From NCBI GenBank assembly GCA_951799425.1, contig OX637396.1, positions 38,980,401-39,044,400 on the forward strand: a stretch of DNA of 64,000 bases. The letters run 5' to 3'. This stretch comes from Ilex aquifolium (taxonomy: Eukaryota > Streptophyta > Magnoliopsida > Aquifoliales > Aquifoliaceae). The position numbers and the translations under genes are program-made. Under the pieces are notes generated by a model. That model had not been told where the DNA came from and searched no databases. It worked only from the letters and a program-made list of their open reading frames with translations. This document shows, piece after piece, positions 12,767 to 59,327 of the stretch; positions within the stretch are counted from its first letter, which is position 1; each line of letters starts with the position of its first letter.

Positions 12767-15700
12767 TCAATTCAACTTCTTCTTCTTCTTTCCCTTTCCA
12801 AATTTCGATGCTTTCCTCAGCTGCATCAACAAAGGAAAACAAGTAAACAACCCCATTAAGTCACTACTTTCACAAGGTGAAATAGAAGCAAGATCTTTAG
12901 TAGTGCTCACCAACATAAGGACAATTACGATGAGGATACCAGCAAAATAAACAGTAATGTCAAGAACATGATCCACATAGTCAATATCCCGAAATTGATC
13001 AGCTTGCTCAATCATCACCTGGCTATACACCACTACGCCAACAGTATAAATGATGGCCAAAAGGTAAAGCTGCCAAGAGTAGAAAAAAAATTAATCAACA
13101 GTCCTAATATAAAATTTTTCATGGATCCTTCTTCTAAGCTTTTCATTTTGTTGGGGGTGAGGGTGGGGGAAGTTTTGCTTCTTTGGACGCCCCATTTGTA
13201 GCATAATAAGTATGTTCTTGGAAAGTAGAAAATAGAAAAACAGGTATCACTTAAGGCCTAACAGTGGGCATGCCGAGCTCGGACGAGTGCGAAAACGTTC
13301 CATCACTATAGACTGAACCCACTATGAACCTTTTCAATAATATCCAGGCCCACCACTAGCTTGACTGGCCTAATCCTGATGGGCCTTTCTTGAAAAAAAA
13401 TTGAACGCAAATATAAATTTCGAGGGAATACACAAATTCATAAAGTTTAGGGTTTTGAAAAAAAAATCAAATCAGGCTTCGGCCAGCCTATTGGACCTTA
13501 AATTGGGCTGGACCATCTTTCAAGCCCAGACCTTACTCATTGCACTGACACATGGTGGCCCAGACTGCCCACCCTTGGCATCAATACTAGTGTAGTTTTT
13601 TTTTGAACTAGAAACTAGTGTAGTTTGTACTAAACAGAAAGTGTGGGACACAAGTTCTACCACATCTTTCTATAGAATCTTCAAGTGTTAAATACTGAAA
13701 AAGGAACTGAATTGGAGGTATAGCCAGCGTCACTTCAGCTCAGATAATTCTAGCGTATGTTAATTGGTGTACCTTAATCTCCCAATAAGCTGTATAGCCA
13801 CCAAAGACAATGGAAGCAAAGTGCAACCAAATCCGGATTAAGACGCTAGAGAAAATCAGGCTACCCAAGTAGATGTAACACCTACGTAGCGTCAGCATGA
13901 CAACTATTGAGAAACAACCATACAAAACGGCAATCGCCCCAATAGTGCTGACAATAACACTGCACCAGAGGAAGAACTTTTAGATCCAAGACAAAATTTA
14001 TAGCTTCAAATTTCATAAATCATGTCCGACAAAATCAAAAATCACATCGGAAAAATATCTAAACATTGGGTGACATACACCAAAAACAGGTCATACATTT
14101 ACCCCTTTTTTCATTTTAGAAGATAGATAAACCACTTTGTCAAGGCCTTTCAATGAAAGAATGGCCAAAATCAATTTTCCGTAAAAGGAAAAAGCCAATT
14201 AGCCAGATCAAATAGACAACGAACAAAAGGGTGCAAACAAATCAAATCATCAATTAATTAAACTAGTGGTCGAATATGTTCCACCTTTACACTAACTAAA
14301 TTTCCTCCAAATTGAGAAAATTATCAAGGAAATTCAGAATCTTAAACATACAAGGTTTGTAAAATAGGATATTAAATGTGTCATTCAACAATCTTAGTCC
14401 CAAGAAGCATAATAGTAACAATGGATCAGAAGTATTATACTGCAAGAAAGTTCCAAAGGTCATTTTCACTCTCAACCAGATATACCCTGGCAACCTATGT
14501 TTGGTAATGGAAAATACATCAAGACCAAAATGTAATGTATTTATTAATTGGTGTTAGACAAACACACAACACTCCCTTTATATTGTTCCTGAATTAGTAC
14601 ACTGCGACTGGAAGATAGAATTTCTTGCTAAGCCTTATCGTTTGAACTATAGACACACGATTCTCCTTAGATGGGAACACTAGCAGAGAATGGTGATTTT
14701 TGTCGGGCATCAAGTGCTTAATTTAAAACATAATAATAGAGATACGACTTACCTAAAAAATAATAACAGAGATATGACAACAACATACACAGATATAGTA
14801 AATTCAAGCTAGCAAGATTAGATGGTTGTATAAAAAAAAAAAAAGAGAGGTATACCCCGTATCAGTCATCACTATCAAGTTAATCAACGGACCAACAAAA
14901 GCCCCTCCACAAAAAGCAGCAACAATCAAGACAGCCACCCTTTTCCACTGCTTATTTGGAGATAAAGTAAATTCAAGCTAGCAAGATTAGATGGTTGTAT
15001 AAAAAAAAAAAAAAACTATCACGAAAAGTAACAAACAGAAGCGAGTTGTGGAATACCCTTGTCCATGTTTTTGTTAAGGCGAAACATGCTAAGGCCACGA
15101 TAAATGCAAGTCTTGTTACTAAGCCCCCAATGTTCCAAAGTTGATAGCAGTAGGCTCCAAAAGCCGCAGCCACGAGAATACAAAACAATGAGAGGTATAC
15201 CTGTTGCAACAGCCCCCCGAAAAAAGGATTATTTATCTTGCAAAATTTGGGTTCAATTAAAACATTCAAGCAAATCAAACATTAGGTCTGTCAAAAAAAC
15301 TAGCCAAAAACTATAACATCAGCAATTTACCGCTACCCAAACACTATATCCAAGAATCGAATCATAATGCATAATTCAAGAACAACTTTTTTTTTTTGGG
15401 AGGGGGAAGGAGGAGAGGAAATTGAATTCTTGACCTCAAGAAGGCAAAAACTTCAGAAGATAAGGAATACCATTAGACCAAAGATCCATTGGTCATAATT
15501 CAAGAACAAGAAATAATAATTCATACCAAAAACACAATCTAATTAAGCCCCAAAAATGATGAGAAAAATGGTGTAACAGAATCAAATTGGCACATTGTCA
15601 TGCATAGTAAACCAACAGAAAAACACTTTCCAAGAACCATTGGAAAAAAAAAGGTTTGAGGACTGAAACTCCTTTTGCGAGGCCCAAACAAATCAAGAGG

Positions 15701-16227
15701 GTTTGAGAAGATCAAACACAAATAATACCCTAGAAACAAGCATGACGAAGCATAAAAAACAAAGGATTTAATTCAATAACTATGAAATCTCATGATGATG
15801 TCAAACCTAACAAATATCAAGAGGGAAATCGACTGATTACTATCTTATTCTACTTTCTTGTGCATAAGAAATGCGCCTGTCAGATAGTAAGTATCAGAAG
15901 TTTACTGCACATTATTCTACTTTCTTGAACAATTAATTTTATTTTCTACATTTTCTAGACATCCAAACGGAAAATCTCAAGGACAAAAAAAGAAAAAGAA
16001 AAAAGGAAACATAAGTTCCGCAACGTTAAAATTGTAAATTCAGAAGCTTAATTCTCTCTAACTGTACTTTCTTTCCCGTTTTTCTGCATTTTCTTGGCAG
16101 TCAAACAGAGGATCCGGGAGAGAAAAAGAGAATTCAATACCTTTCTCAGGTGAATCTGAACAACTGCCGGAATCGTCGTGCAGTTCATTAAGGTGTCAAT
16201 GTCCCAATCGTCATCCATTGCATCCAT
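12767..16227 (-). CDS. Bax inhibitor-1-like protein, copy 1 (six exons, 240 aa)
   Basis: Six exons on the minus strand: 16227-16141, 15200-15057, 14947-14856, 13959-13773, 13069-12911, 12820-12767. They have GT-AG junctions and total 723 nt. Exon 1 ends VVQIHLRK and exon 2 begins VYLSLFCILVAAAFGAY then LWNIGGL, matching the start of plant BI-1 (TMBIM/UPF0005 family, ER membrane, suppressor of cell death). Exon 4 holds GCFSIVVMLTLRRCYIYLG and FASIVFGG; exon 5 holds YSQVMIEQA and DIDYVDH. Six to seven hydrophobic segments are visible. The tail is short and lysine-rich (KGKKKKKLN), as in canonical BI-1. Two aspartates conserved in canonical plant BI-1 (in DTQ and FTDF) are Tyr here, so calcium or pH sensing may differ. 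No disabling lesion. A SINE sits in intron 1. The start is the first ATG of the reading frame; a second in-frame ATG lies three codons later. Confidence 0.9.
15386..15493 (-). mobile_element. SINE insertion in intron 1 of BI-1-like gene 1
   Basis: The segment is flanked by a perfect 16-bp duplication CATAATTCAAGAACAA (15370-15385 and 15494-15509). On the minus strand it has a tRNA-like head (TTTGGTCTAATGGTATTCC), an internal box-B-like stretch (TTGAGGTCAAGAATTCAA), and a poly-A tail (T-run on the plus strand at 15387-15397). The paralogous intron of copy 2 near 22000 has a single uninterrupted target site, so it acts as the empty site. The element inserted after the two genes were duplicated. 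Confidence 0.85.
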
Positions 16228-16336
16228 GGTATTCCGAGTACTGAAGTTCGCAGAGAGAGAGAGAGAGAAGCAACGTAAAAGTTTTCAGTCCGAATGTGAG
16301 AAGAAGTGTGAATGGCCAACTGAATCTTGCGAGCTG

Positions 16337-16348
16337 TATATATATATA
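16337..16348 (-). promoter_or_regulatory. TATA box of BI-1-like gene 1
   Basis: Run of alternating T and A on the minus strand about 110 bp upstream of the ATG. The flanking words (GAGCTG on one side; AGTCTGTTATTCTAGAGAGA on the other, plus strand) are conserved at the other BI-1 copies. The upstream block to about 16610 is also conserved, including GGTTGTTCGCGGGAATGG and CCGTTGGATG. Confidence 0.7.
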
Positions 16349-16659
16349 GTCTGTTATTCTAGAGAGAGAGAGTCGAAATTTTACCCCTGCCGTTCACTTT
16401 CGGTTTTATTTATGGGATGGTTAACGTTGGTTTTATGGAGTTTATGGAACTTTTCAGGGGTAATTTGGGAACATAAAGAAATTGAACAGGTCGGTTGTTC
16501 GCGGGAATGGAAGAGATTCGAAAGAGATGAAACCGACTCAGATTGCTTAGCTGGAAGCTGGGAAATATCTCAACCGTTGAATTCAGAGAATTGCACCACC
16601 ACCGTTGGATGTGGAAATTTTGTGGACAGTGCAGCATCAGGACCGTGGCAATCACAGGA

Positions 16660-19859: not shown

Positions 19860-22717
19860 TCAACTCCTTCTTTCCCTTTCAAATGCCGATGCTTGCTTTA
19901 TCTGCATCAACAAAGGAAAACAAGTAAACGACCCCATTAAATTACTATTTTCACAAGGTGAAATAGGAGCAAAAACTTTAGTAGTGCTCACCAAGGTAAG
20001 GACAATTAAGATGAGGAGACCGGCAAAATAAACAGTAATGTCGAAAACATTGTCCACATAGTCAACATTCCCAAACTCAGCCTGGTCAATCATCACTTGG
20101 CTATACGCCGCTAAGCCAACAATATACATGATGGCCAAAAGGTTAAGCTGCTAAGAGTAGAAAAAAATTTAATGAACAGTGGGGGGAGTTTTGCTTCTTT
20201 GGACACCATTTGTAGCATAATGAGAAGTTCGTTCTTGGAAAGTAGAAAATAGAAAAACAGGTAATTACTTAAGGCCACCTAACGGTGGGCATGCCGAGCT
20301 CAGGCCCACCACCAGCCTGACGGGCCAGTCATGATGGGCCTATCTTGAAAAAAAAGTAAAAATTGAACGCAAATGTAAATTTAGAGGAAATACACATTGA
20401 TAAGTGGGTTTTAAATTTAGCGCATCACTTCAGCTTAGATAATTCTATCATATGTTAGTTGGTGTACCTTAATCTCCCAAAAAGCTGTATAGCCACCAAA
20501 GACAATGGAAGCATAGTGCAACCAATTCCGGATTAAGATGCTAGAGAAAATCAGACTACCCATGTAGATGTAATCCCTACGTAGTGTCAACATGACTGCT
20601 ACTGAGAAACAACCATACACCACCGCAGTCGCCACAAGAGCACTGACAATAATACTGAACCAGAGGAACAACTCTTAGATCCTATACAAAATTCAAAGCT
20701 TCAAATTTCATAAATAATGTTTGACAAAACCAAAAATCACAACAGAGAAATATCTAAACATAGGGTGGCATATACAAAAAATAGGTCATACATTTGCCAC
20801 CCTTTTGTCAAGGTCTTTCAATGAAAGAATGGCCAAAATCAATTTTTTGTAAAAGGAAAAGGCAATTAGCCAGATCAAATAGACAACGAGCAAAAGGGTG
20901 CAAACAAATCAAAATACCAATTAATTAAACTAGTGGTCGAACATGTTCCACCTTTACACTAACTAAATTTCCTCCAAATTGAGAAAATTATAAAGGAAAT
21001 TCAGAATCTTAAACACACCAGCTTTGTAAAATAGGATATTAAATGTGTCATTCAACAATCTTAGTCCCAAGAAGCGTAATAGTAACAGTGGATCAGAAGT
21101 ATTATACTGCAAGAAAGTTCCAAAGGTCATTTAAAAAGAAGATATATTCACTCTCAACCAGATATCCCCTGGCAATCTGGTTTGGTAATGGAAAATAAAT
21201 CCTGAACAAAATCTAATGTATTTGTTAATTAGTGTTAGACAAACACACAACACTACCTTTATATTGTTCCTGAATTAGTACACTACAAGATAGAATTTCT
21301 TGCTAATCCTTATTGTTTGAACTATAGACACACGATGTCTGAGAACACTAGCAGAGAATGGTGAGTTTTGTCAGGCATCAAGTGCTTAATATAAAACACA
21401 ATAATAGAGAAATGAATTACCTAAAAAAATAATAACAGAAATATGACAACAAACCAAATAAATATTCAGTAATAGGTTTACCTTGTATCAGTCATCACCA
21501 TCAAGTTAATCAACGGACCAACCGAAGCCCCTCCACAAAAAGCAGCAACAATCAAGACAGCCACCCTTTTCCACTGCTTATGTTATGATACCGTAAATTC
21601 AAGCGAGCAAGAGATTAGATAGTTGTATCAAAACAAAAACTATCACGAAAAGTAACAAACAGAAACGAGTTGTGGAATACCCTTGTCCATGTTTTTGTTA
21701 AGATGAAACATGCTAAGGCCACAATAAATGCAAGTCTTGTTACTAAGCCCCCAATGTTCCAAAGTTGATAGCAGTAGGCTCCAAAAGCCGCAGTCACGAG
21801 AATACAAAACAATGAGAGGTAAACCTGTTGCAACAGCCCCCAAAAAGAAGGATTACTTATCTTGCAAAACTTTGGTTCAATTAAAACAAACAAGCAAATC
21901 AAACATTCGGTCTGTCAAAAGACACAGCCAAAAACTATAACACCAGCAATTTATCACTACCCAAACACTATATCTAAGAATCGAATCAAAAAGCATAATT
22001 CGAGAACAAGAAATAATAATTCATACCAAAAATACAATCTAATTAGGCCCCAAAAATGAAGAGAAGAATGGTGTAACAGAATCAAATTGGCACATTGTCA
22101 TGCATAGTAAATCAACAGAAAAACACTTAATTTCCAAGAACCACAGGAAGAAAAAAAAGGTGGAGGATTGAAACTCCTTGTGTGCCTCCCAAACAAATCA
22201 AGCGAGTTTGAGAAGATCAAACACATAATCCTCTGGAAACAACCATGTCGAAGCATAAAAAACAAAGGATTTAATCCAATAACTATGAAATCTCATGATG
22301 ATGTAAAAACTATCAAATATCAAGAGGGAAGTCGAAAGGTTACTACCTTATTCTACTTTCTGGTGCATAAGAAATGCGCCTGTCAGATAGTAGGTATCAG
22401 AAGTTTACTACACATTATTCTACTTTCTTGAACAATTTCGTACAATATTTTCTTGACATCCAAACAGAAAATCTCAAGGACAAAAAAAAAAAAAGAAAGA
22501 AAGGGAAACGTAAGTGCCGCAAAGTTAAAATTGTAAATTCAGAAGTTTAGTACTCTATAACTCAACTTTCTTTTCTGTTTTCCTGCATTTTCTCGGCAGT
22601 CAAACAGAGGATTTGGGAGAGAAAAAGAGAAATCAATACCTTTCTCAGGTGAATCTGAACAACTGCCGGAATTGTCGTGCAGTTTATTAGGATGTCAAAG
22701 TCCCAATCATCATCCAT
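19860..22717 (-). CDS. Bax inhibitor-1-like protein, copy 2 (six exons, 232 aa)
   Basis: Exons on the minus strand: 22717-22640, 21824-21681, 21573-21482, 20654-20468, 20147-19992, 19901-19860. All are GT-AG and total 699 nt. It starts MDDDWDFDILINCTTIP and continues VVQIHLRK, VYLSLFCILVTAAFGAY, LWNIGGL, TLRRDYIYMGS and YSQVMIDQAEF. It is the closest relative of copy 1, with introns also readily alignable. The protein lacks three residues at the N-terminus relative to copy 1. Its C-terminal tail is short (FERERRS) and has lost the lysine run. As in the other copies, YSQ replaces DTQ and VYF replaces the TDF aspartate. All junctions and the reading frame are intact. Expected location is the ER membrane, inferred from the family. 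Confidence 0.9.
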
Positions 22718-22827
22718 TGTATTCCGAGAACTGAATTCTGCTGAGAGAGAGAGAGAGAGAGCAACGTAAAAGTTTTCAGTCCGAGTGTGAGAAGAAATGT
22801 GAATGGCCAACTGAATCTTGCGAGCTG

Positions 22828-22835
22828 TATATATA
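22828..22835 (-). promoter_or_regulatory. TATA box of BI-1-like gene 2
   Basis: TATATATA on the minus strand 111 bp upstream of the ATG, in the same block context as gene 1. The conserved upstream block extends to about 23105. Confidence 0.7.
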
Positions 22836-23639
22836 GTCTGTTATTCTAGAGAGAGAAAGTCGAAGTTAGTTTTACCCGTCGTTCACATTCGGTTTTATTT
22901 ACGGGATGGTTAACGTGGATTTTATGGAGTTTATGGTACTTTACAGGGGTAATTGCGGAACATAAAGAAATTGAACAGCTCGGTTGTTCGCGGGAATGGA
23001 AGAGATTTGAAAGAGCTGAAACCGACTCAGATTCCTTAGCTGGAAGGTTGGAAAGATCTCAACCGTTGAATTCAGAGAATTGCACCACCACGGTTGGATG
23101 TGTAACTGTCCGACTCCTGTGATGTAAATTTGGCAACTCAAGAGGCAATTTTGTTCGGGGTTTTCACATTGATCAGAGGATTGAATACAATATGTATTAT
23201 ACGTATCTAATAATAATTAATAAAATATATAAATATTTTGTGAATATTTTTACACATGAAGGAAGATATATAATTTTTAATTTTAATTTTGAAGACACTG
23301 GTGTTTCTTTAATATTATCTACTATTACATGTCAAAAAAGAATACAAAATGAGTTAGTTATGTCAGCAACTAGTTAATCGTTGGTTCTAATTCTTTTAAT
23401 TGGTCACGTTTACTTTTTGAATATATCTTAATGAGACAATATTTCATCTTTTTCAATGTAAAAATTGTTAATTTTGCTTATTATTATTATACAATTATTA
23501 AAAATTATAATTTTTAAGTAGTTAAATAATAGTAAAATATAAAAATATTTTATTATAAAAGTATCTTAATCGTAATCGTAATCATATCTTATTTTTTTCA
23601 AATTTTATTGTATCGATGTATCTGTATCTTATCGTGCTC

Positions 23640-24420: not shown

Positions 24421-24720
24421 CTGCACGAAAAAAACCTGTTTGGCATTCAAGAGCAAGATTGCTATGCAAGCATATACATCATGTCAAAATTTGGTAACAA
24501 GCAATGAATTATTGTAAAGCTCATGGAAAAAAAAAGTGTTTGTTAGGAGTAAAAATGACTATAGTGATTGTTTTTCTTGTTTCCATTTCATATTCCGGTG
24601 CTTTCTTCACTTGCATCAACAAAGGAAAACAAGTAAACAATCCCATTGCCAAAATGTACAGCTGTAATATAAAATTTCCATGGATTCTTCTTCTAAGCTT
24701 TTCATTTTGTTGGAGTTTTG
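24421..24720 (-). pseudogene. BI-1-like 3' end relic
   Basis: This matches the 3' flank and last exon of the BI-1-like genes on the minus strand, including CATCAACAAAGGAAAACAAG at 24614-24633, which is the intron just upstream of exon 6. The exon-6 equivalent reads VKKAPEYEMETRKT but the acceptor has changed from GATGCAG to GATGCAAG. Just beyond, a deletion joins the intron to a stub of the exon-5 start (TACAGCTG at 24658-24665). Upstream exons are absent. This is the edge of a third, deleted unit. Confidence 0.7.
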
Positions 24721-28967: not shown

Positions 28968-29012
28968 AGACACGTTAAAGGATTGGGGAGAGGGTCAATA
29001 CCGGCAAACTTA

Positions 29013-30875
29013 ATGGCAGATTTCACATCTAAGGGAGAGAGCTTGTTTAGCCATCTCCATCCACACCCACTAGTCCTGACAGATTCACCTACGTCCATGG
29101 ATTGCTCGGGATGTGGGAAAAGCTTCTTAGAATCAGTTTCTTACTATAGTTGCTCCGACGGGTGTTGTTTCGACTTGCACGAACGGTGTGCCGAACTACC
29201 CCGGAGTATTAGCCATCCCACTCACTCTCAACACCTTTTAACTCTCCATAAAGAACCACCAAATCGATGTTCGTATTTCGATTGTGATGTCTGTGGAAAA
29301 TTTTGGCAGTATTTTACATATTATTGTTCTCTCTGCGAGTTTAAAATTGACACAGATTGTGCATTTATTCAGGAATGGACCATCACAAACGCAAGTCATG
29401 ATAATCATGATTTGAATTTGTTAATGAAGCCATCTCTGTTTCTTTGTAATGCTTGTGGCGAGAAACGTGAAGACAAGTCCTATCAATGTACGAAATGCCA
29501 ATATTGGATCCATTACACTTGTGCTTTGTCTCCAGTCACCCTTGACTATACAGATCACCATCACCCTCTCACCCTTGCCTATAAGCTCCAGCGCTCATTT
29601 TCTGATTTCAGCCCCGTTTGCAATGTTTGCGATAAGGCTGTGACAGCACCGTATTGGTTTTATTTTTGTGAACAAGATTGTAGATATTTTGTTCATTTGA
29701 AGTGCGCTACATTAAATCCAAGGTTTAATGTTTTTTTTTTATGTTGTTTGATATATTTTTTGTTATTGTTTTTGATTGTGAATAATTTTTTTTTTTTTTT
29801 TCATTTCAGCGATAGTGAAAGCAATAGCGAGACTACAGAAGAAGGGTTGCAGCCTAATCTGAACCTAATGCATTTCCCAATGGATAATCCCTTAGATGTG
29901 ATAAGCCATTTTGTAGAGGAAATATGTTTAGCAGAAAACAAGGCAACAACTACAACAACAAAGCTCGACCATTTTGGCCACAACCATCTACTGCAGCTTT
30001 GCAACGAGCTGAATAATGAGACAGTGTGTGATAAAAGAATGCTATGTAAAGTCTGTGTGCTGCCAATTTCAGCTCCATATTACAACTGTGCTGACTGTAA
30101 TTTCTCTATCCACAAATTTTGTGGAGAGATACCCCGAGAGGTGACAGTGGAACATGGATGCGACCTCAATCACACGCTCTTCCAGTCCAACGGTTTCTTC
30201 TGGTGTAATGTCTGTGATAAACCGTTCGAAGGATTCAGCCTTAATTGTTCCAGTGGGTGTGAGGTTTCATATGATGTCAACTGTGCTGCTCTAATTAACT
30301 ATAACGTAAAACATGAAGCTCATAAGCACCACCCTCTCTTCCCAGGTGACGCAACAAACCTATTTTTCAACGACTGCAACGCTTGTGGTCTCTCTATCTC
30401 AGGCGAACGTGCATTTCTATGTGGAAGTGGAACTTGTGAATTCAAAATACACGTGAAGTGTGCCATGCTGCCACGCACAGTTAAGCACAGATGGGACAAA
30501 CATCCGCTTGTCTTGAGTTATCCTCCCTTTATCAACTATCCTGGAGATTTTTATTGCGAATATTGTGAGGAAGAAATAGATCCAAAGTTGTGGCTTTATC
30601 ATTGTTTTCCATGCGATCAATCTTTCCATCTTACATGCCTTCCTCAAGCAAAAGAGCTTTCAAATCTCAAGTATGAGGGCACCTTTAGGGTTCTTCAGCA
30701 CTCACATCCTCTCACATACGTGGAAAGCTCTGAGGATGAGTACCAATGCAACATCTGCGACAGAGGGTTTGTATGTTTCAATTTCTTTGAATGTCAACCT
30801 TGTAATTTTTATATGTGCGATAATTGTATTAAGGATCCAAATTCAAGGACCACCCAAGTCCATTTGAGTCCTTAA
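29013..30875 (+). CDS. DC1 domain (cysteine/histidine-rich C1) protein, gene A (591 aa)
   Basis: Two exons, 29013-29722 and 29810-30875, with an 87-nt GT-AG intron (AAG/gtttaa...catttcag). The spliced product is 591 aa. It contains about nine DC1 modules, four in exon 1 and five in exon 2. Each has a His-Pro-Leu start, paired CxxC motifs and a closing HxxCA..P: for example HPHPLVL...CSGCGKSF...LHERCAELP, and later CNVCDKPF and CEYCEEEIDPKLWLYHC. DC1 (PF03107) modules are C1-like zinc-binding folds in a large plant-specific family tied to stress and signalling; the ligand is unknown. The halves are joined by a conserved linker (PLDVISHFVEEICL). The ATG in TTAATGGCAGATTTC is chosen because genes B and C start at the same place. 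The intron is a multiple of three and has no stop, so an unspliced reading stays open (about 620 aa). This is the only undamaged DC1 gene here. Confidence 0.9.
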   Translation: MADFTSKGESLFSHLHPHPLVLTDSPTSMDCSGCGKSFLESVSYYSCSDGCCFDLHERCAELPRSISHPTHSQHLLTLHKEPPNRCSYFDCDVCGKFWQYFTYYCSLCEFKIDTDCAFIQEWTITNASHDNHDLNLLMKPSLFLCNACGEKREDKSYQCTKCQYWIHYTCALSPVTLDYTDHHHPLTLAYKLQRSFSDFSPVCNVCDKAVTAPYWFYFCEQDCRYFVHLKCATLNPRFNVFFLCCLIYFLLLFLIVNNFFFFFHFSDSESNSETTEEGLQPNLNLMHFPMDNPLDVISHFVEEICLAENKATTTTTKLDHFGHNHLLQLCNELNNETVCDKRMLCKVCVLPISAPYYNCADCNFSIHKFCGEIPREVTVEHGCDLNHTLFQSNGFFWCNVCDKPFEGFSLNCSSGCEVSYDVNCAALINYNVKHEAHKHHPLFPGDATNLFFNDCNACGLSISGERAFLCGSGTCEFKIHVKCAMLPRTVKHRWDKHPLVLSYPPFINYPGDFYCEYCEEEIDPKLWLYHCFPCDQSFHLTCLPQAKELSNLKYEGTFRVLQHSHPLTYVESSEDEYQCNICDRGFVCFNFFECQPCNFYMCDNCIKDPNSRTTQVHLSP

Positions 30876-32964: not shown

Positions 32965-32967
32965 GTA

Positions 32968-40641: not shown

Positions 40642-40647
40642 TCGCTA

Positions 40648-43029: not shown

Positions 43030-43037
43030 GATTTTAG

Positions 43038-43631
43038 TAGGGGTGCAACTTGAGCGGGCTAACCCAATTTTAACCTGAGCCCAACCCGAAAAATTAGGGC
43101 TTAGGCTAAGGTTTTTAATACTTGGGTCAAAAAATCTTAACCCGAATTCAATTTAGGCAGGCCTCGGGTTGAGTCATCGGGTTCACGAGTTGAACCCGAA
43201 TATTAAAATCGGGTTCAACCTGATTTAATGCCTCACTTTGGGGTTCTATTCTTGGGGCATGTAGTAACTATGACAGTATGTCTATTGGAGAAATTGCAGT
43301 CAGACACCTATTTAATATAGAACCTGAGAAGTCAGTAAACTATGTGGTTCTAGCAAGCATGTATGTTGCACCTGGATTGTGAGACAGTGCATCAGGTTTA
43401 GAACAACAAGCTTATTTTGGGCTCAACCCGTACTCAACTTGAATTGAACCTGTAAAGTAACCCAAAATCATTAACCCGAATTCAACCGGAATTCGCCCGA
43501 ATTAAACTCGGGCAGTGCTTGGGTTGAGTCCCTCAACCCGAGATAAGGTTAGAGTTAGAGTTAGGGTTGAAGATTATATACCTAGGATTGGGTTAGGGTT
43601 GATTGTCCAACCCGTCTGAGCTGCACCCCTA
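43038..43631. mobile_element. hAT element carrying a PPR gene fragment
   Basis: The element runs from TAGGGGTGCAACTTGAGCGGG to the inverted copy ending GCTGCACCCCTA. It is flanked by an 8-bp duplication GATTTTAG / GATTCTAG (43030-43037 and 43632-43639, one mismatch). The subterminal parts are made of repeated AACCCGA/GGGTT words. The centre (43236-43397) is captured pentatricopeptide-repeat coding sequence. The host spacer sequence resumes on both sides. Confidence 0.8.
43236..43397 (+). pseudogene. Captured PPR-protein fragment
   Basis: The plus-strand frame reads LWGSILGACSNYDSMSIGE, then HLFNIEPEKSVNYVVLASMY and VAPGL followed by a TGA where Trp is expected. This is the E-motif region at the C-terminal end of a plant PPR protein (usual form: WGSLLGAC..H...LGE...L..LEP...NYVLLSNIYA). 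About 54 codons; no start and no more of the gene. The cargo of the surrounding hAT element. Confidence 0.8.
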
Positions 43632-43639
43632 GATTCTAG

Positions 43640-44530
43640 CAATGTTTTAATGTTATATACAATTAATAACGACAACACGCGACTCAACGCTCTTGGATTC
43701 AAAATACTTAAACCCATAGTTTAAAGTCACCAGCGACTCAACGCTCTTAACGGGCTAAAATACGAGGGTGAACAACAATAATGTGTACACACACAAAAAA
43801 AAAAGAATGGTAGTAATGATTCTGCAAAAAATAACATGATCGATATCAAGATTTTATGGCGATCCAGCCTTGATGGTCGATCATTGAATTAAAAGTATTA
43901 ATTTTTGGTATAGTATCGATTAATTTAATTTATCGAATATAATAATGACACCGTGTAATAGTATTCACGTGATGAGAAAAAAAAGTCCCAAAATTCAAAG
44001 GTGAGATGCATGCTCCAAACACTGAAGCGCCAAAGATGGATCTACTCTTATTTTAAGAAAGATGAGTTATAAAGAATCTTTCGTGTCAATTGGATGATGG
44101 GTTAGTATTATAATTCAATTCAAATGTATTATTGTACATATTTATTACTATAATCTCACGATAGATAAAATTAATTATCAACGTAACAAACACTTTGACG
44201 CACTGATTGAGAGTATTTTTATTAATGTAACATTAAAATGATCAAATAATTTTCTAATCAAACAACCGATTAAATTAAATAACAATTATCCAACGCTTAT
44301 ATTGTGTATTATCAAACACTAGATAAAATTACGTATTTAATCTTGTCAATTGTTATCAGTATTATATTAGACTATATCATTTTATCTAATCTATCTATTT
44401 TTAATACGACAACCAAACGAATTCATATGTTCAAAAACTGAAAATTTTAAAGTCTCTTTTTATTTTTCCCAACCAACTGAATCAAGTCTACAAGTAGAGA
44501 CACATCGAAGGATTGGGGAGAGGGTCAATA
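43640..44530. other. DC1 spacer before pseudogene D
   Basis: No gene. It has the CCCAAAATTCAAAGGTGAGATG block near 43987 and the leader block GTAGAGACACATCGAAGGATTGG at 44494-44516. Confidence 0.5.
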
Positions 44531-44642
44531 ATGGTGGACTCCAAAGCTACGAGATATAAATTGTTTGGCCATCTCCATCCACACCCACTAGCCCTGACGG
44601 ATAAAATCACCAAATGCATCTTCGTGTCATGTCAGTAGAAAT

Positions 44643-45214
44643 TGATGATGCACAAAATTAAATTTATGCATCACCTGTCGAATAATTGATATAGGTAATA
44701 AATGCAGTAAATATACGGAAGAGATCAACACAGACAACACACAAATATAGAGTGATTTCGGTCAAATTGACCTATTCCACTTTGAAGGCAGCAACGATAG
44801 CTGGAAAACTTTATTAATAAAGTAAAGGTGTGAGAGTGGGAGCAAATGTAAGCTCTATGAGAGGTTGGGTAGCTGTGAGAGAGATAGTCGTGTAAATGGT
44901 GTGTAGAGAGATGCTCCTCTCATGTAGAGAGTGCTTATAATTTATAGACATAGAGCCTTAATTGAGGCGGTGGCGTGAAGGAATAAGTAACTAGCTTATC
45001 GGAGAGGATAGTTACAGTTAAGAATTGGTACAATTATAGATAGTCTTCATCTAGGAGAGTGACTATCCTGATAATTACTCTCCACGTGCGCTAGTTCTTC
45101 CTGGATTCCTTGGACTTCGGACCAGGCCGAATCCATGAGCTGGGTTTGTCCTGTCTTTTAGTTGATTTGGGTTTATTTCATTAATTGGGTCTGACTCAAT
45201 TAGATCTGGGCTCA
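44643..45214 (-). mobile_element. LTR-like insertion in pseudogene D
   Basis: It begins TGATGATGCACAAAATT like the solo LTR at 27680 and ends with a diverged GATCTGGGCTCA. It shares internal words on dicot LTR promoters and GA-rich runs, and it interrupts DC1 exon 1 after module 1. No clear TSD (GAAAT versus TAAAA), so it is older or rearranged. Confidence 0.6.
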
Positions 45215-46000
45215 TAAAAAACAGTTAGGAGTATCTATCATACCATTGGTCCCTCTGTGAGTTTAACATTGACCTAAATTGTGCATTTCAGGGGCTCACC
45301 ACCATCAAACACGCAAGTCATCATGATCATGATTTGAAGTTGTTAGATAGGTCATCTCTGTTTTGCTGTGATGCTTGCGGCACAGAACGTAAAGACAAGT
45401 CCTATGTAAGTGGGAAATGTCAACTGTGGATCCATTACACTTGCGTTTTGTATCCAGTCACCCTTGAATATAGAGATTATGACCCTCATCACAGAACGCG
45501 GTGATGGACTATTAATTCAAGAGAAGAGTTGGGGGCTAATCTAAACCTAGTGCATTTTCCAATAGATTACCCCTTTGACGTGATACGCCGTTTTTTAAAG
45601 AAAATATGTTTGGGAACTACTAAAACAACGCTCAATCATTTTGGCCACAACCATCTACTGTAGCTTTGCAAAGAGCTGAATCACGAGACAGAGTGATAAA
45701 AGAATGTTATGTAAAGCTTGTGTGCTATCAATTTCAGCTCCATATTACAACTGTGCTGAATGTAATTTCTCTATCCACAAATGTTGTGCAGAGATTGCCC
45801 GAGAGGTGACAGTGAAACATGGATGCTATGGCAATCACACTTTCTTCCAGTCCAACCAACTTCATGTTTTCGGTTTCTCCTATTGTGATGCCTGTGGGAA
45901 ACCATACAATGGACTCAGCCTTAGTTGTTTCAGTGGGTGTGATACTTCATTTGATATCAAATGTGCTGCTCTACTTAACACTAACCTAAAACATGAAGCT

Positions 46001-46755
46001 TGATGAGTCCGAATTTGACAGGACCAAGCCCGATTTAAATAAACCAAGAAAGCTCAAAGAAAAGTCCAAATCAAGGCTGGGTCAACCCTTCAAGAAGGAG
46101 GCCAAAGCACCAAGGGAATGAAGAGACAACACCAAGGATCCCCAAATGGGGGGGGGGGGGGCGCCGCCCATATGGTCTCCAAGTGGGCGTCGCCCATGGC
46201 TTGCCTCCCTGACCCTTTTCTCCCTTCTTCACTCCAATGCGAGTCCGTGTTCAGCCCACTCCAGACTAGGTCCAGACTCAGGAAGATCAAGCCCAATCCA
46301 ATCAGGATCATTCTCCGGCGAAATAAGAACACGAGGGAAAGAATATTAGGATACAGAGATCTAACCCTACTAAAGTTGTACTTACCAAAATAGTAGAAAC
46401 TCTCTCCCTCACGTCACCGTCTTACCCTAATTATATAATGTACGTCCTCTCAACAATAAGGATACGCTTCCAATACCTCACATATCTCTCTATGCATATT
46501 GCTCTCTCTCTCTTCCCCAAGCATTGTAATACTCCCGGAGCAACTCTCCTGGCTACATTGTTCATCAATAAAACACCTCCGGTCACTGCTGTCGTTTTTT
46601 AGAGTGGAGTAGGTCAACCGGATCGAACCACTATAATTCTTTGTGTTTTCTGTTATTCATTGCATTGTCTTTAATTATCTGTTTATTGCTCGTTGACTGC
46701 ACCTATTCGTATTCTTGACTGTTTATCTTATGCAATATCAATTTGTACATCATCA
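46001..46755 (+). mobile_element. Solo LTR (755 bp), TSD AAGCT
   Basis: A perfect 5-bp duplication AAGCT (45996-46000 and 46756-46760) flanks TGATGAGTCCGAATTTG...TACATCATCA. Removing it restores the DC1 reading ACATGAAGCTCATAGGCACC seen in gene B. It contains a TATATAA word (46432-46438) and an AATAAA (46567-46572), plausible LTR promoter and poly-A signals. A run of G at 46147-46160 precedes GCGCCGCCC. Same family as 27680-28616, in opposite orientation. Confidence 0.9.
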
Positions 46756-47114
46756 AAGCTCATAGGCACCCTCTTTCCAATCAACGGAGGTTTCTTATGG
46801 ACCTCTAAACTCTGCAATGCTTGTGGTAAAGGGATCGAGCACTGCTCCATTGGATGTGACAGTTGTCGTTTCAGAATACACATGGAGTGTGCGATGCTGC
46901 CACCTACAGTTAAGCACAGATGGGACAAACATCCGCTTGTCTTGATGGATCCTCCTCATATCTTCCATCGTGAAGAATTTTATTACGAATATTGTGAGGA
47001 AGAAATAAATCTAAAGCTATGGATTTATCATTGTACTTGTTGTGATCAATCTTTCCATCTCACATGCCTCGGTGAAGCAAATGTGTTTTCAAATACAAAG
47101 CATGAGGGCCCTTA

Positions 47115-50391: not shown

Positions 50392-53300
50392 TCAATTAAA
50401 CTCCTCTTTTTCCTTCTCCCCCTCATGAACATAGTCGGGTGCTTTATTCTCCTGCACAAACAAAGGAACAGCTACCACCTGCATCGACAAAAAGAACAAC
50501 CACGTTAAATCACTCCTTTTCCACAACTCACAAGGTGAAGAAGTAGAAAGCAAAAAACTTCAGCGGTGCTCACCAATACAAGGACAAGTTGGATAAGCAG
50601 ACGAGCAAAATAGAGAACAAGCTTGACAACATGTTGCACATAGTCAGCATCCCCACGGCTAGCCTGCTGTACCACCACCTGGCTATACCGGACTATGCCC
50701 CCCAAATACATCCAGGCCAAAACGTACAGCTGCCAGGAATACAAATATTTACTCAACACAACTAATTATATTAAACTTTTCCATGGATTCTTCTTCTACC
50801 TTTTCCTTTTGATGTGGTGAAGGTGGGGGAGTTTTGCTCTTTGGACTCCATTGGTAGCATAATAAGAGTGTTCTTGGAAAAATGTAAAATAGAAAAACAG
50901 GCATTACTTAAGGGTCTGCACTGCTAGACTACTTGGGTTTTGACAAGGTTGGACCAGTCTAATAAATTGGAACTATCATCCAGCCCATCGTGGTATTTGG
51001 TAATAAAGTTATAATCCCAGGCTCTACACACATGGCTAATGGTTACCCACACACAGGCGATCTACACACATGGCTACCCATTACACTTGGTGGGCCAGTC
51101 TGCCCATAATGCATTTTGTACTAAACAGAAAGTGGTGGACACAAGTTCCACCACATCGTTCCAAAGAATCTTCATGTGTTAAATACTGAAAAAGGAAATT
51201 AATTAGAGGTTTAGCTAGCTGTACTTCAGCTCGGATAATTTGTGATGTGCTAATTCTATTCTATTATATATTAAATGGTTTACCATAGTCGTCCAAAAAG
51301 CTGTCAAGCCACCAAAGATAGCAGAACCAAAGAGCAACCAAATTTGGATTAAGGCCATAGAAGAAAGCACGCCGCCCAAGTAGAGGTAATCCCTACGTCG
51401 GGTCAGCATGACTGCCACCAAGAAACAACCATAAGCCAAAGCGATGGCCAGGGAAGTGCTGACGAAAATACTGCAACAGAAGAAGGGGCTCAGTTTAATA
51501 AAAGTTTTATAGTTTCAAATTTTATATGTCATGCCAAACCAAACAAAAATAACACTAATAAATATTGGGAGGCAAACACTAGAAACAGGAAATACGGTTG
51601 CCTCTTTTTTCATTTTGGAAGAAAGATAAACCGCTTAGTCAAAGATCATTTAAAGAGAAAGTGCCCATCAATATCCAGCAAAAGGAAAAGGCGATCACCT
51701 AAATTAAAATAAACAATGAATAAAAGGGTGCAAACAAATCCAAAAATTAGTCAATTAAACTGGTTGTAAAACATGTTCCACCGTTGTCCTAATTAAATTT
51801 CCTCCAAATTGAGAAAATTGTAAAGAAAATCTCACATCCTAAACACACTCGGAGGGGTAAAATATATCATTAAATGTGTGTGCTGTCAAAACATCCACAA
51901 AAAATATATCTTCACTCTCGACCAGATATCCCCATGCAACCTAAGTTTGGTTGTGTAAAATACATCGTGATCAAAATCCACCGCAGTTGTAAGTGATACC
52001 CAAATACACAACACTACTTTTATAATTGTTTGTGAACTAGGACACTAAGAGATAGAATTTCTTGTTAAGCATCCCTGTTTTACATATGGACACATGATTT
52101 CCCTTAGATTGGAACACCAGCGAAGATTAGTAATTATTGTCAGGCGTCAATTGCTTAATGTACAACAATGTTAGAGATGCGACAACAACATACAAAGGTA
52201 AGCCAAATAAAAACTGAAATGCTAAATAAAATAAATCAGTAAACAAAAAACCATGCAGGATGCAGCAAGTTTACCCCGTATCAGTCATCATAAAGAAGTT
52301 AATCAACGGACCAATCGAAGCCCCTCCCAAAAAAGAAGTAACAATCAAGACCTTGACCCTTTTCCACTGCTCAAAACAAGATACAGAAAATTCAAGATAA
52401 GTAAGATTAGATAGTTTATCAAAACAATATTATCACGAAAAAGGTAACAAACACAAACGGGTTGTAGAATACCTTTTTCCATTGTTTTTTCAAGATGAAA
52501 CACGCTGAGGTCGCAATAAAAGCAAGTCCTGTTAAGAAGCCCCCAATATCGAGAACGAGATCGAAATAGGCTCCAGATGCCGAAGTCATGAGAATACAAA
52601 ACACTGAGAGGTAAACCTGTGGCAAAAGCCCCCGAAAAAGAAGGATTATATATCGTGCAAAACAACAGTAACATGCATGCAAAAAGCAAAATCTGATACC
52701 AGAAATGGAGAATGCTAACGATAATTTAACAGGAGAGTAGACATGAAAAGCAAGCATATAATGGAACCAATGCTTCAAAGTACTAGGATCTGATGCAAAA
52801 TTTCATTTACAGCCCATATATACCAAGATACAATCGTTTCTATTATGACAAACAAGCAAATCAAACATCTGGTCTATGAAAGAAACCAGCCAAAAACTAT
52901 AACTGACACCAAGCTAAAGAATACTTACAAAAACATCAGCATTTTACCATTAAACGATTGCACTATATGAAAGAACCAAATCAAGATGTAGATTTCGAGA
53001 ACAAAAGATTGAAGGTCGCACCACAATCTTTTGCACAGCTGCTATCAAATACAGCTATGCAAATAGGGAGTGTGCAACACAGCAACCCACATAGTAGCAA
53101 AGCAAACCAGTCAAGGAACCATACCTGCACACTGGATAGCCTAACCTCCATCACAGCTGATGGAAATCATCCATAGGGAAGCAAGAGTAGGAATAGGATG
53201 AATTTACTTTGTAAACATGCTATCTTTATTTGAATGAATATTTATATTTCGACCAAAAAAGGTCGCACCACACTGAATACTTAATACATCCCAAAACTAC

Positions 53301-54074
53301 AATCTAATTAAGCCCCAAAAGTAAAGGAAAAAATGGCATAACAGAAAGGGGGAAAACTGAAATTTCTTTTGTGCCTCCCAAACAAAACATGAAGGTTTAA
53401 GAAAATCGAACAATATGATCCCCTGACAACATCCCTGACAAAGCATAAAAAAGCTAACAAATATCAAGACGGAAATCAAAAGGTTAAACTGAAGAGCAAT
53501 CAATCGATCACAAGCAAATTTGCTCTACTTTTTCCTTTTCCTGCATTTTTCTCAGAAACCGAACAGGCACTGGGGAGAAAAGAAATGCTCCGGTCAGATA
53601 CTTTCTTATATATTTCATTCATTTTCTCAATGGACAAGAAGACAATCGTAAGCAAGAAAAAAGACATTATCATATAAATTTCGTTTCAAATGTTCCACAC
53701 CATTAAAACTACTCAGAAGTCTAATACACATTATTCTCTACTTTCTTTCTCATTTTCCTACATTTTCTAGACAGCCAATCGGATGATCTCAAGGAAAAAC
53801 AGAATCAGAAAAAGAAAAAGAAAAATCAGATTCAGATATTTTTTTGTTTCCACAAGTACTACGAAGTTAAAATTGAAAATTCAGAAGCCTAATACTCTCC
53901 AGTTCCAACTCCACTTTCTTTTCAGCTTTTCTTCATTTTCTCGGCAATCAAACAGAGGATTTGGAAGAGAAAAATATTATTCAATACCTTTCTCAGGTGA
54001 ATCTGAGCAGTTCGCGAGATTGTCCCAAAATTCGTTAGGGATTCAAGGTTCCAATCCTCATCCATTGCATACAT
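50392..54074 (-). CDS. Bax inhibitor-1-like protein, copy 3 (six exons, 241 aa)
   Basis: Exons on the minus strand: 54074-53988, 52616-52473, 52366-52275, 51470-51284, 50729-50574, 50451-50392. All are GT-AG and total 726 nt. It starts MYAMDEDWNLESLTNFG and contains AQIHLRK, VYLSVFCILMTSASGAY, TRRRDYLYLGGVLSS, FGSAIFGGL and YSQVVVQQA. The RRRDYLYLGG motif is closest to canonical BI-1 among the four. The last exon gives an acidic/mixed tail (HEGEKEKEEFN). An upstream acceptor (after GTCGATGCAG at about 50479) stays in frame and would add nine residues (VVAVPLFVQ), matching the position used in copy 4. Intron 1 holds a retro-insertion at 53026-53260. No disabling lesion seen. Confidence 0.88.
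53026..53260 (+). mobile_element. Retro-insertion with poly-A and 12-bp TSD in intron 1 of copy 3
   Basis: A perfect 12-bp duplication GGTCGCACCACA (53014-53025 and 53261-53272) flanks 235 bp that ends in a short A-run after TATATTTCGACC. The paralogous intron of copy 4 has the target once (ATCGCACCACAG near 58650). It is probably a 5'-truncated LINE tail or a processed-transcript fragment; the source was not recognised. Confidence 0.75.
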
Positions 54075-54540: not shown

Positions 54541-55049
54541 TAAATTTTTGGACATAATTTATTGATTTAATTATTTATAATAATTGAATTGACAAGAAAT
54601 TTCAATATCTATTGAAATTTGTAATTAATTTAATAATTATGATAGATTAAATTAATAAATTATGTTCAAATAACATTATTTATAACAATTTGACAGTATT
54701 GTGATAAAAATTGAATTCTCAACTTTATTTTGCAAAATAAGAAAATTTTAAATGGGACGGGGGTAAGAAAAATTTTTGGAAATTAGATTAAGGATAAGTA
54801 AAGATGGCTAGTTCTGATCAAGGCGGATTTACACCGGAGGTAGGGAGACAGTTGTTTTAGTGTAATCTCTATCACAACTTGTAATATCACTATTGTCGTT
54901 AAAGTGCTCTCGTGTCAAAATAGTAAAAAAGACATGTTATTTGAATTTAATTTACTGGTTTAATAATTTATTATTATTAAATTCTAACAAATGAATAAAT
55001 TATGTGTAAATAATGCATTGGTTTTTCCCCTCATTTTAAAATATTTTCA
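54541..55049. other. Intergenic between BI-1-like gene 3 and inverted relic
   Basis: AT-rich. Short phrases (AATTTATTGATTTAATTA, ATAATTTATTATTATTA) are repeated. No gene or bounded element seen. Confidence 0.4.
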
Positions 55050-55552
55050 TTCCCGCGAACATCCCAGCCATTCTGTTTCCTTACTTTCCCAAATTACCCC
55101 TAAAACATTTGATAAACTTCACAAAAACCGCATTAAGCATCCAGTAAATACAACCGAAAGTGAAGGGCAGGGGTAAACCTTGACTTTCTCTCTCTAGAAT
55201 AACAGACTATATATATACAGCTTCGCAGTATTCGGTTACTTGTTCGTTTCACTTCTTCTCGGTACTCAGACCGTTGAGCTTTCACGTTCCTTTCACTCTC
55301 AGCAAAATTGAAGCTCTCAATTGTTAAAGCAATGAATAGGCATGTTCATAGGGATCGGAACGATGAAGTCGGGAAGATCACGTCATTTGTTCAGATCCAC
55401 CCAATAAAGGAAATTTTCTCTCAAAATCTTGTGTTTGGATGCCGAGAAAATGTTGAAAATGGGGACGAAACAAGTAGAGTTACGAGTATGAAGCCTCTGA
55501 ATTTTCAATTTTTTAATTGTGTGGAAATAATGGAAACAAAAAAAATCTGAAA
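55050..55552 (+). pseudogene. Inverted BI-1-like promoter + exon 1 relic
   Basis: On the plus strand this reproduces the conserved BI-1 upstream block (TTCCCGCGAACA, CCCAAATTACCCCTAAAA, TCTCTAGAATAACAGAC), a TATA run at 55208-55217, and an exon-1 equivalent from ATG 55332 (MNRHVHRDRNDEVGK...VQIHPIKE). The following intron-1 equivalent resembles copy 4 (FSQNLVFGCRENVENGDE versus LSQIFCLTSEKMQENGKE when both are translated). The exon-1 donor has changed (AAG/GTATTG in the others) and no further exons follow. It is head-to-head with copy 3. Confidence 0.75.
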
Positions 55553-55557
55553 TTGAT

Positions 55558-55720
55558 GGCCCTGTTTGATTTCTGTTTTTTGTTTTCAAAAATTTCTCAA
55601 AAAAAAAGCTGTTTGGGTTGTTATATTTTATAAACTGAAAAGAAAAACTGGTTAGATTTTAGAGAACAAGTTAAAGTTATTTTATGTGTTTTTTAAAATA
55701 ACATTTCCGGAATTTAGAAA
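55558..55720. mobile_element. Remnant of a GGCCCTGTTTG-type TIR element
   Basis: GGCCCTGTTTGATTTCTG followed by a GTTTTCAAAAATTTCTC stretch and AGAACAA words resembles one terminus of the element at 38754-39888. The opposite end is not seen. Confidence 0.35.
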
Positions 55721-56203: not shown

Positions 56204-59200
56204 CTATAATTCCTTCTTGATCCCCTTATAATGCATAAATGCTTTCTTCCCCGGCTTTAACACCATCTGCATCAGAAAAAAAAGAACAACCAAGTTAAAG
56301 CACTCGTTTTACAATATTATGAAGTAGAAAAGAAAGAACTTCAGTGGTGCTCACCAAGATAAGGAAAATTCTGATGAGGAGTTGAATGAAAACAAGTCTG
56401 AGAACATCGTCCACATAGTCAAAATCCTCAGGGCGAGCCTGCTGAACCACCGCCTGGCTGTATAACCGTATGCTCCTCACATACATCATAGCCACAAGGT
56501 ACAGCTGTCAGGAATAGAAACTCATGTTACTCACTCTTTTGCAAACTTCATGTTTTTCTTTTCTGTGGGGGTTGGGATTTGGGGGAGTCTTGCTGTTTGA
56601 ATTAGGCTGTTTGGATTTAGTTTCACGAGTGGTGAATAGGGAAATGATCCGTTAAGGTAAATAGGGGTAATAATTCTTGTGTTAATACTGAAAAAGGAAA
56701 TTAATTAGACTTTCAGCTAGCAGCATTTCAGAGAATTTGTAATTAATTAAATTCTAGCATATACTAATTGGTTACCGTAAAAATCCAAGTAGCTGTTAAG
56801 CCACCAAAGACAATAGAAGCAAAAAGCAGCCAAATCGGGATTAAGGCGAAAGAAGAAAGCATGCCACCCAAGTAGAAGTAATCCGTGTGCGACGTCAGCA
56901 TGGATGCCACCGAGAAACAACCATACGGCAAAGCAACCGCCACAGAAGCACTGACAATAACACTGCAATGGTGGAACGACTCTTAGTTCAATAAATAAGC
57001 TCATAATTTCATATTTCATTAGTCACCCTTGACAGAACAAAAATCAAAAGGTCAAATACATAGACATTGGGGGGCATACACCAGAAATAGGTCATACATT
57101 TGCTTCCTTTTTCATTTTGGAAGAAAGATAAACCACTTAGTCAAGATCATTTAGAGACCATTCATAAATTTCCAGCAAAAGGAAAATGCAATGAGCCAGA
57201 TTAAAATAAACAATGAAGGGGTTGAAAACAAATCCAAACCTTGATTAATTAAACTGGTTGTGACATGTGAAATGTTTTCCACAATTTTTTAATGAACACT
57301 TCCATACAAATTTTTAACATAAAATGTTTTCCACCTTTACTCTACTCCAATTAAATTTCTTTCAAATTGAGAAAATCCCAAGGAATATCTCAAATCCTAA
57401 ACACACTAGGTTGGTAAAATCTGTCATTAAATGTCTGTGCTGTAAAAACATTCAACAATCTTAGTCACCCCAAGAAGCGTAGTTTTGACCGTGGATCCAT
57501 CGGTGCTAGACTGCAAGAAAGTTCCCAACTTCCAAAGGTGATCCACAAAGGAGATATCTCCACCAGATACTCACAGACAACCTAAGTTTGTAGTGTAAAA
57601 TACATATGATATGACCCAAATTCCTGTAGTTGTTAATTTGCAATATACAAAGTTACAAACGCACAACACTACTTTTATATTGTTTGTGAATTAGTATGGA
57701 CACTCTCAAATCCTAAACACAGAATTTTGTGTTAAGCATCCTGGTTTTACATATGGCACACGAAGTCCTTGCAGTGGAAAAACTAGCAGAGATTGGTAAT
57801 TTTTGTCAGGCATCAATTGCTTAATATACAACATAATGTGAGAGATACCGTAACAACATAAAACCATGAGCCAAATAAAAACTAAAATGCTGAAGTAAAT
57901 CATTTAGGAAAAAATATACACAGGATGCAGCAATTTTACCCAGTATCAGTCATGATGGACAAGTTACTCAAAGGACCAATTGAAGCCCCTCCCCAAAATG
58001 CAGTAACAATCAAGATCACCATCTTTTTCCGCTGCTCATAAAGACGTATAATAAATTCAAGGTAGTCAAATTTAAATAGTTTATCAAAACAAAACTGTCA
58101 CGGAAAAGGTAATAAGCAAAGATGGGTTATGGACCTGTTCCCGTGGTTCTGTTAAGGCGAAACACGCTGAGGTCACAATAAATGCAAGTCCTGTTAATAA
58201 GCCGCCAATGTTGCAAAGGAGATGGAAGTAGGCTCCAGAAGCCAAAGAGATGAGAATACAGAACAATGACAGGTACGCCTATGGCAAAACCCCCGCAAAA
58301 GAAGGATTATTTATCTTGCAAAAGCAAACAATGATCTAACAGAGAAGCCAGACTTGAAAGGAAACAATATAATGGAACCAATAATTCAAAGACATGAAAA
58401 GCAACAATAAAATGGAACCAATCATTCAACGTATCACGAATACAGAATTTCATCTACAAATGATCCCAAGATGCAATCATTTCAATTATAACAAGCGAAT
58501 CACACATTAAGTCTATTAAATAAACCAGCCAAAACTATAACTGACATCAAGATAAATAAAAGAATCCTTACAAAAACATCACCAAAATACCATTACACTA
58601 CATCACAGAGTCAAATCAAGATGCATATTCAAGAACACAAAATTGAAAATCGCACCACAGAATAAAAATTCATGCCAAAACAACAATCTGATTAAGCCCC
58701 AAAAATAATGAAAAGAACAAGAAAAGCAAGAATCAAGCACAACTGTCATGCATAGTAAACCTACAGAAAAACAATTTCAAAGAACCACAGAAAATACAAA
58801 AAAAGGTAGAAAACTGAAACTCCTTTTGTGCCGCACAAACAAATCATGGCGGTTTGGGAAAATAACACTATTATCCCTGAAAACAATCCTGACAAAGCAT
58901 CAAAAATAAAGGATTTAATCAAATAACTATCCAAATCTCATGAATGTGTAAAACCTAACAAATATCAAGACAGAAATCGAAAGGTTAAACTGAACTAGAA
59001 CTTCAGAACTTAGAAGTTTAATAAACATTATTCTACTTTCTTTATCAGTTTCCTACATTTTCAGGGCAGCCAAACCGAAAATCTCAAGGAAAGCAAAAAA
59101 GAAAAAAGAAGCATCAGTTTCAGACATTTTTTGTTTCCACAAATTCCACAAAGTGAAAATTGAAAATTCATAAGCTTAATACTCGTAACTCTAATTTCTT

Positions 59201-59327
59201 TCCCGTTTTCCTGCATTTTCTCGGAGGTCAAACAGAAGATTTGAGAGAGAAAAAGCATATTCAATACCTTGCTCAGGCGAATCCGAACAACCTCCGGGAT
59301 GAACCCAACATTCCTATCCGGATCCAT
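56204..59327 (-). CDS. Bax inhibitor-1-like protein, copy 4 (six exons, 231 aa)
   Basis: Exons on the minus strand: 59327-59268, 58278-58135, 58031-57940, 56962-56776, 56504-56355, 56266-56204. All are GT-AG and total 696 nt. Starts MDPDRNVGFIPEVVRIRLSK, then AYLSLFCILISLASGAY, CNIGGLLTGLAF, YGCFSVASMLTS, DYFYLGGMLSSF, FASIVFGGL and LYSQAVVQQARPEDFDYV. It is the most diverged copy. The RR pair before DYFYLGG is replaced (TSHTDY), exon 5 is two codons shorter, and the tail is MHYKGIKKEL. Exon 2 uses an acceptor CATAG/GCGTAC where the others have CAG/GTNTAC. Exons 2-4 have the same lengths as in the other copies, which supports the model and suggests coding constraint. Confidence 0.87.

Follow-up and report, generated by a model that had tools for sequence, protein, structure and literature searches.

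Can a conserved cell-death regulator lose the residues of its calcium gate and still be maintained as a gene? This question is raised by a 64,000-nucleotide (nt) stretch of chromosome 6 of English holly, Ilex aquifolium (C6:38980401-39044400, hereafter the window), which holds four BI-1-like genes between positions 12767 and 59327, all on the minus strand and with six exons each. A di-aspartyl pair is thought to gate the BI-1 calcium pore, and an aspartate is found at either pore position in 0 of the 4 copies. The copies have a common origin, and their reading frames are open far beyond neutral expectation; thus, something keeps the genes open while the protein changes at a neutral rate.

Four open genes and two missing aspartates

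The exon boundaries of the four genes were placed by eye on the sequence, and the exons were then joined by script. Copy 1 (12767..16227, 240 amino acids) comprises exons at 16227-16141, 15200-15057, 14947-14856, 13959-13773, 13069-12911 and 12820-12767, and copy 2 (19860..22717, 232 amino acids) comprises exons at 22717-22640, 21824-21681, 21573-21482, 20654-20468, 20147-19992 and 19901-19860. Copy 3 (50392..54074, 250 amino acids) runs through 54074-53988, 52616-52473, 52366-52275, 51470-51284, 50729-50574 and 50478-50392, while the exons of copy 4 (56204..59327, 231 amino acids) lie at 59327-59268, 58278-58135, 58031-57940, 56962-56776, 56504-56355 and 56266-56204. The reading frame is open in all four, and GT..AG borders are present in 20 of 20 introns, which bears out the original prediction of four intact, cleanly spliced six-exon genes. 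The identical lengths of exons 2, 3 and 4 to which that prediction pointed (144, 92 and 187 nt) are also found in every copy, but they are no special mark of the cluster: both regular BI-1 genes of holly have the same lengths, which are therefore the family's inherited gene structure.

Against the Pfam Bax1-I profile, which has a cut-off of 34.1 bits, copies 1, 2 and 3 score above (46.3, 45.4 and 41.6 bits) and copy 4 just below (33.1 bits), with the match covering nearly the whole profile in each case. A simple hydropathy scan gives seven hydrophobic peaks in all four proteins. The copies belong to the BI-1 gene lineage and to the Pfam family, copy 4 falling just under the cut-off, and not to the di-aspartyl group.

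The two aspartate positions were located by aligning the copies with holly BI-1, with provisional sequences of Arabidopsis and human BI-1 and with the bacterial channel BsYetJ, in a sequence identical to PDB 4pgr. In this multiple alignment the DTQ and TDF motifs fall on BsYetJ Asp171 and Asp195, and the mapping onto YetJ rests on it by way of the aspartates common to holly BI-1, the provisional human BI-1 and YetJ. A profile comparison with YetJ gave no convincing match (probability 2.2%), and a search of solved structures with the regular BI-1 sequence and with a profile found no TMBIM structure, nor, with the profile, any YetJ chain. At the first position DTQ has become YSQ in all four copies, as had been predicted, with the codons TAT then AGC; the tyrosine is Tyr185 in copy 1 (13025..13027) and Tyr182 in copy 2 (20103..20105), and it lies at 50685..50687 in copy 3 and 56460..56462 in copy 4. 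At the second position copies 1-3 have TAT, again for tyrosine, so that TDF reads VYF in copy 1 (Tyr211, 12947..12949) and copy 2 (Tyr207, 20028..20030) and LYF in copy 3 (50610..50612). These readings stand as originally given, but the FIQ proposed for copy 4 is better read as an in-frame deletion of 6 nt, the two missing codons, at 56390..56391, taking the Asp195 position with them. The alignment thus places no aspartate at the positions equivalent to Asp171 and Asp195 in any copy, in agreement with the original prediction.

Relatives in the holly genome and the order of the losses

The genome was searched with Pfam Bax1-I, Arabidopsis BI-1, copy 1 and the DNA of copy 4, and the best candidates were scored, so the census that follows is a lower bound. 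The regular BI-1 genes, on C2 and C13, both keep DTQ and TDF. Four other Bax1-I loci, which we take to be LFG-type by motif, have both aspartates in the exon read (4 of 4, by motif script and not by alignment). Outside the cluster, the closest relative for which a complete gene model could be drawn is an intact BI-1-like gene on chromosome 5 (C5:5252323-5254873), which carries a long N-terminal extension not present in the other full copies (L013, 2324-2530) and an exon 2 of 156 nt. Its motifs are SSQ and ADF. Like the copies, it has lost the first aspartate and has the same serine codon, AGC, in the next place; unlike them, it has serine and not tyrosine at the first site (TCT AGC) and keeps the second aspartate. 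A fifth cluster copy lies about 8 kb beyond the window; its exons 1-3 can be read, and the others fall in N. On C4, two duplicates about 200 kb apart and 96% identical (L018 and L019) carry the final two exons of a relative seen nowhere else, which reads YNQ at the first site and lacks two residues where copy 4 does. Apart from a third BI-1-like place on C13, described below, the other BI-1-like matches are fragments.

In the codon tree copies 1-4 stand together with a bootstrap of 100, with copies 1 and 2 joined at 100 and copies 3 and 4 at 71. The protein tree adds the chromosome 5 gene and the fifth copy to this group with a support of 99; the order inside this BI-1-like clade is weaker (54-80) except for copy 1 with copy 2, and the grouping with Arabidopsis is weakly supported (62%). 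The proposal of a distinct duplicated subfamily lacking both aspartates is upheld by the two main nodes. Four independent losses were held to be unlikely from the start, and they remain so, given that copies 1-4 are one clade with TAT AGC in common at the first site; that view can now be refined. Because the chromosome 5 gene has lost only the first aspartate, stepwise loss in one lineage would be the simplest history: the first aspartate would have gone before the chromosome 5 gene split off, the second on chromosome 6, and its place would later have been deleted in the line leading to copy 4. The chromosome 5 gene may nonetheless have lost its first aspartate independently, as its TCT AGC differs from the TAT AGC of the copies.

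The surroundings of the copies hold several further traces of the family. A cluster of DC1/C1-type zinc-finger genes on the plus strand (28968-47112), in which Pfam C1_2 was matched in 6 of 6 reading frames tested, separates the two pairs of BI-1-like genes. A decayed, inverted BI-1-like relic at 55024..55587 (plus strand) retains promoter, exon 1 and the start of intron 1 at about 70% identity, and its splice donor GT reads GA (by eye); a short relic at 24568-24713 (minus strand) matches the 3' part of copies 1 and 2 at 85-87% identity. Pieces of copy 4 (56562-59183) recur on C7, C3, C9 and C11 (L014, L015, L016 and L017) at about 96-100% per aligned piece. Three of the four stop at one common base, 56562, and a 3' part is common to all four places. 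The pieces on C7 and C3 are embedded in a common element, about 3.6 kb long and 94% identical, whose short inverted ends are imperfect (GGGCGTTTGG... and ...CCAAACACACCC). The pattern would fit the capture of copy 4 by a transposable element that then spread. Exon 1 and the start of intron 1 of copy 3 likewise recur, at 98-99%, at two places that also have flanking sequence in common (L020, C17:8167000-8174000; L021, C4:16427000-16434000).

Open frames and near-neutral amino acid change

How far the open frames depart from chance was gauged by a neutral simulation calibrated on the introns, over 206 codons. About 3.5 stops per copy are expected in this length under neutrality, and a single copy would remain open with a chance of 2-3%; none of 2000 neutral runs left all four open. 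Indels were counted over exons 2-5, with exons 1 and 6 excluded. From the intron indels, 5.5-10.6 frame-breaking events are expected per pair of copies in these exons, and none was found in any of the six pairs, the indels that do separate the copies being 3 or 6 nt long.

Amino acid change tells another side of the story. Branch models written for this analysis, which match the one-ratio likelihood of IQ-TREE (-3393.89), put the ratio of nonsynonymous to synonymous divergence (dN/dS, omega) at 1.01 in the BI-1-like clade, compared with 0.236 on the stem and 0.107 in the regular pair. There is no penalty for setting the clade to 1 (twice the log-likelihood difference, 2dL, 0.008), while a single omega for the clade and the regular pair costs 2dL 46.2; free-ratio branches are not significantly better than three ratios (log-likelihood -3356.80 vs -3363.04, with 8 more parameters). 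Pairwise dN/dS among the four copies is 0.63-1.01 by NG86 and 0.84-1.57 by YN00. A mis-estimated dS is an unlikely source of these values, since intron distances are close to dS by NG86 (0.106 vs 0.136 for copies 1 and 2, 0.276 vs 0.351 for copies 3 and 4). Among the five exons compared, mean dN peaks in exon 5 (0.377, with a dS of 0.339), which encodes the last two helices.

Site models were also compared. For M2a against M1a, 2dL is 23.65 in the four copies, 30.97 with the chromosome 5 gene added and 20.0 without codons near gaps. As a control, introns were cut into pseudo-codons in three frames, both in full and thinned to 206 codons, and these six sets returned 13.8, 2.8 and 4.2 in full and 5.9, 3.6 and 3.5 thinned, one of them nominally significant (p=0.001). 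For M3 against M0, the exons give 2dL 47.9 (37.5 when trimmed) and the introns 8.5-37.3, significant at 0.05 in 5 of 6 sets. The site tests are clearly inflated here, though the exon M2a signal exceeds every intron control. Because intron pseudo-codons also yield inflated tests, positive selection on the copies is only suggestive and is not claimed.

In all 10 pairs that can be formed from copies 1-4 and the chromosome 5 gene, the proximal upstream 350 nt resemble each other more closely than the introns do. For copy 4 this region (59328-59677) is 87-95% like those of copies 1 and 2 (16228-16577 and 22718-23067), against 69-70% for the introns, which suggests that the promoter either underwent gene conversion or is strongly constrained. 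Four motif patterns of the unfolded protein response were found upstream of none of the eight genes, regular BI-1 included, and are hence uninformative. Judged from the sequence, copies 1-4 are probably transcribed.

Competing explanations and known systems

The explanation that we favour, with moderate confidence, is that the copies would form a fast-changing BI-1-like subfamily whose open reading frames are maintained, which lacks the di-aspartyl calcium leak and which acts by protein contacts. BI-1 would have been duplicated, one lineage would have lost the Asp171-type and then the Asp195-type residue, and the lineage without both would have spread in tandem on chromosome 6. We infer that the copies are translated; the proteins would still be seven-helix membrane proteins placed in the membrane of the endoplasmic reticulum (ER), and without the pH-sensing pair they would have no regulated calcium leak of the BI-1 kind. 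Such channel-silent paralogues would most likely act through contact with BI-1 itself or with its partners, and might modulate, compete with or replace BI-1 in ER cell-death and defence control. Rapid sequence change goes together in the copies with retention of the reading frame, the splice sites and the proximal promoter. Both the identity of the partner and a role as modulator or decoy are speculative. By analogy, the contacts might be with partners of the calmodulin or RTP1 type: the C-terminal domain of Arabidopsis BI-1 is reported to interact with calmodulin, and protection from cell death by BI-1 to require its charged C-terminal tail (PMC2738916), and Arabidopsis BI-1 is reported to interact with RTP1 in defence against Phytophthora (PMC13291311). 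A bolder version, which we think rather unlikely, would have the copies be diversifying, channel-dead BI-1 "pseudo-channels", with tyrosines put stepwise in place of the gate and with a part in a defence arms race as decoys or dominant-negative BI-1 partners; if true, they would be the membrane-channel counterpart of a pseudoenzyme decoy. Among the open-licence literature matches listed, nothing was found on BI-1 in holly or on plant paralogues of BI-1 that lack the pair, which is not proof of absence.

Several alternatives need to be weighed against maintenance for a role in protein contacts. Under relaxed constraint, a weak or lenient residual function would keep the frames while the amino acids drifted almost freely and the aspartates were lost by drift. 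This is possible but on balance doubtful. A clade mean dN/dS not different from 1, the lack of a significant gain from free-ratio branches, and the inflated intron tests, with the trimmed exon M3 value barely above the top intron value, are all what it would predict, as are the widely differing C-terminal tails, lysine-rich in copy 1 and altered in copies 2, 3 and 4 (that of copy 3 being longer and fairly acidic). Against it, exons 2-5 contain neither stops nor frame-breaking indels, which implies sustained selection over that length, and the exon M2a signal lies above all six intron sets even when trimmed. That the copies are still channels, with gating or selectivity changed by tyrosines in place of the acidic pair, appears improbable. 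The seven hydrophobic peaks are kept, and the viral GAAP mutant D219N is reported to raise single-channel conductance (PMC4416878). Copies 1 and 2 also carry, within VLDITVYF, an aspartate that precedes the lost second one by 4 residues, or about one helical turn, which leaves room for a changed, not absent, ion path. However, copies 3 and 4 carry Lys and Arg at that nearby position, the two-residue deletion of copy 4 lies beside it, and in US21 calcium conduction is reported to need the Asp195-type residue, with D201N abolishing conduction and D178N keeping it (PMC10470750). Finally, the copies could be decaying tandem pseudogenes that are open by chance, a reading to which we give very little credence. 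The original prediction had taken a dN/dS near 1 as a sign of decay, and the ratio is indeed near 1, with two relics in the neighbourhood; the step from that ratio to decaying copies is opposed by the simulated stops and the indel counts, on which pseudogenes are rejected, and the intact borders of all 20 introns speak against it as well.

Some observations weigh against the contact-acting subfamily itself. A mean dN/dS of 1 also fits relaxed constraint, and the preservation of hydropathy exceeds the neutral level only moderately, with five peaks instead of seven in the chromosome 5 gene. The C-terminal tail of copy 2 is replaced after an apparent 1-nt frame change in the last exon relative to copy 1 (by eye), which falls outside the exons of the indel count, and copy 4 has an out-of-frame ATG 5 nt upstream of the chosen start. 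By analogy with the TMBIM5 mutant D326R, reported to be unstable (PMC9206080), loss of the aspartate pair could simply weaken folding. The loss is also part of a wide divergence that does not single out the aspartates: holly, Arabidopsis and human BI-1 (the last two as provisional sequences) agree at 90 positions, of which 26 are kept and 31 are lost in all four copies, so that the loss of two aspartates is unsurprising in itself and is notable through the role of these residues, not through its improbability. A third BI-1-like place, near the C13 BI-1 gene (L011, 1652-1813; C13:28830654-28830815), reads DTQ but TTF, with a run of N starting about 1 kb away in which further exons may lie.

To our knowledge, it is not settled whether BI-1 proteins protect by calcium leak or by protein contacts. 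Holly offers a natural series within one genome, with both aspartates in the two regular genes, the second only in the chromosome 5 gene and neither in the cluster, which could be used to test leak against contacts. The cluster also suggests that a conserved cell-death regulator can yield a tandem family that preserves its reading frames while replacing amino acids at a neutral rate.

Set beside known systems, the copies share with plant BI-1 (TMBIM6 type) the six exons, the lengths of exons 2-4, the Bax1-I match and the seven peaks, at 39-42% identity to the regular BI-1 of holly over 206 codons. They are unlike it in the loss of both di-aspartyl residues and in the clade dN/dS of 1.01 vs 0.107, and the lysine-rich tail of plant BI-1 has a similar form only in copy 1. 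An Asp195-type residue is reported in all six mammalian TMBIM members, and the change D219N in the viral GAAP is reported to abolish protection from apoptosis (PMC4416878). The bacterial calcium channel BsYetJ has its Asp171-Asp195 pair where copies 1-3 have Tyr/Tyr and copy 4 has Tyr and a deletion. Further parallels come from the laboratory, where the corresponding pore aspartates were changed, as in the copies, in US21 D201N, GAAP D219N and TMBIM5 D294R/D325R, the last with reportedly impaired calcium uptake (PMC9206080). Those changes were engineered, to Asn or Arg, whereas the changes in holly are natural, to Tyr or by deletion, and arose in a duplicated plant lineage.

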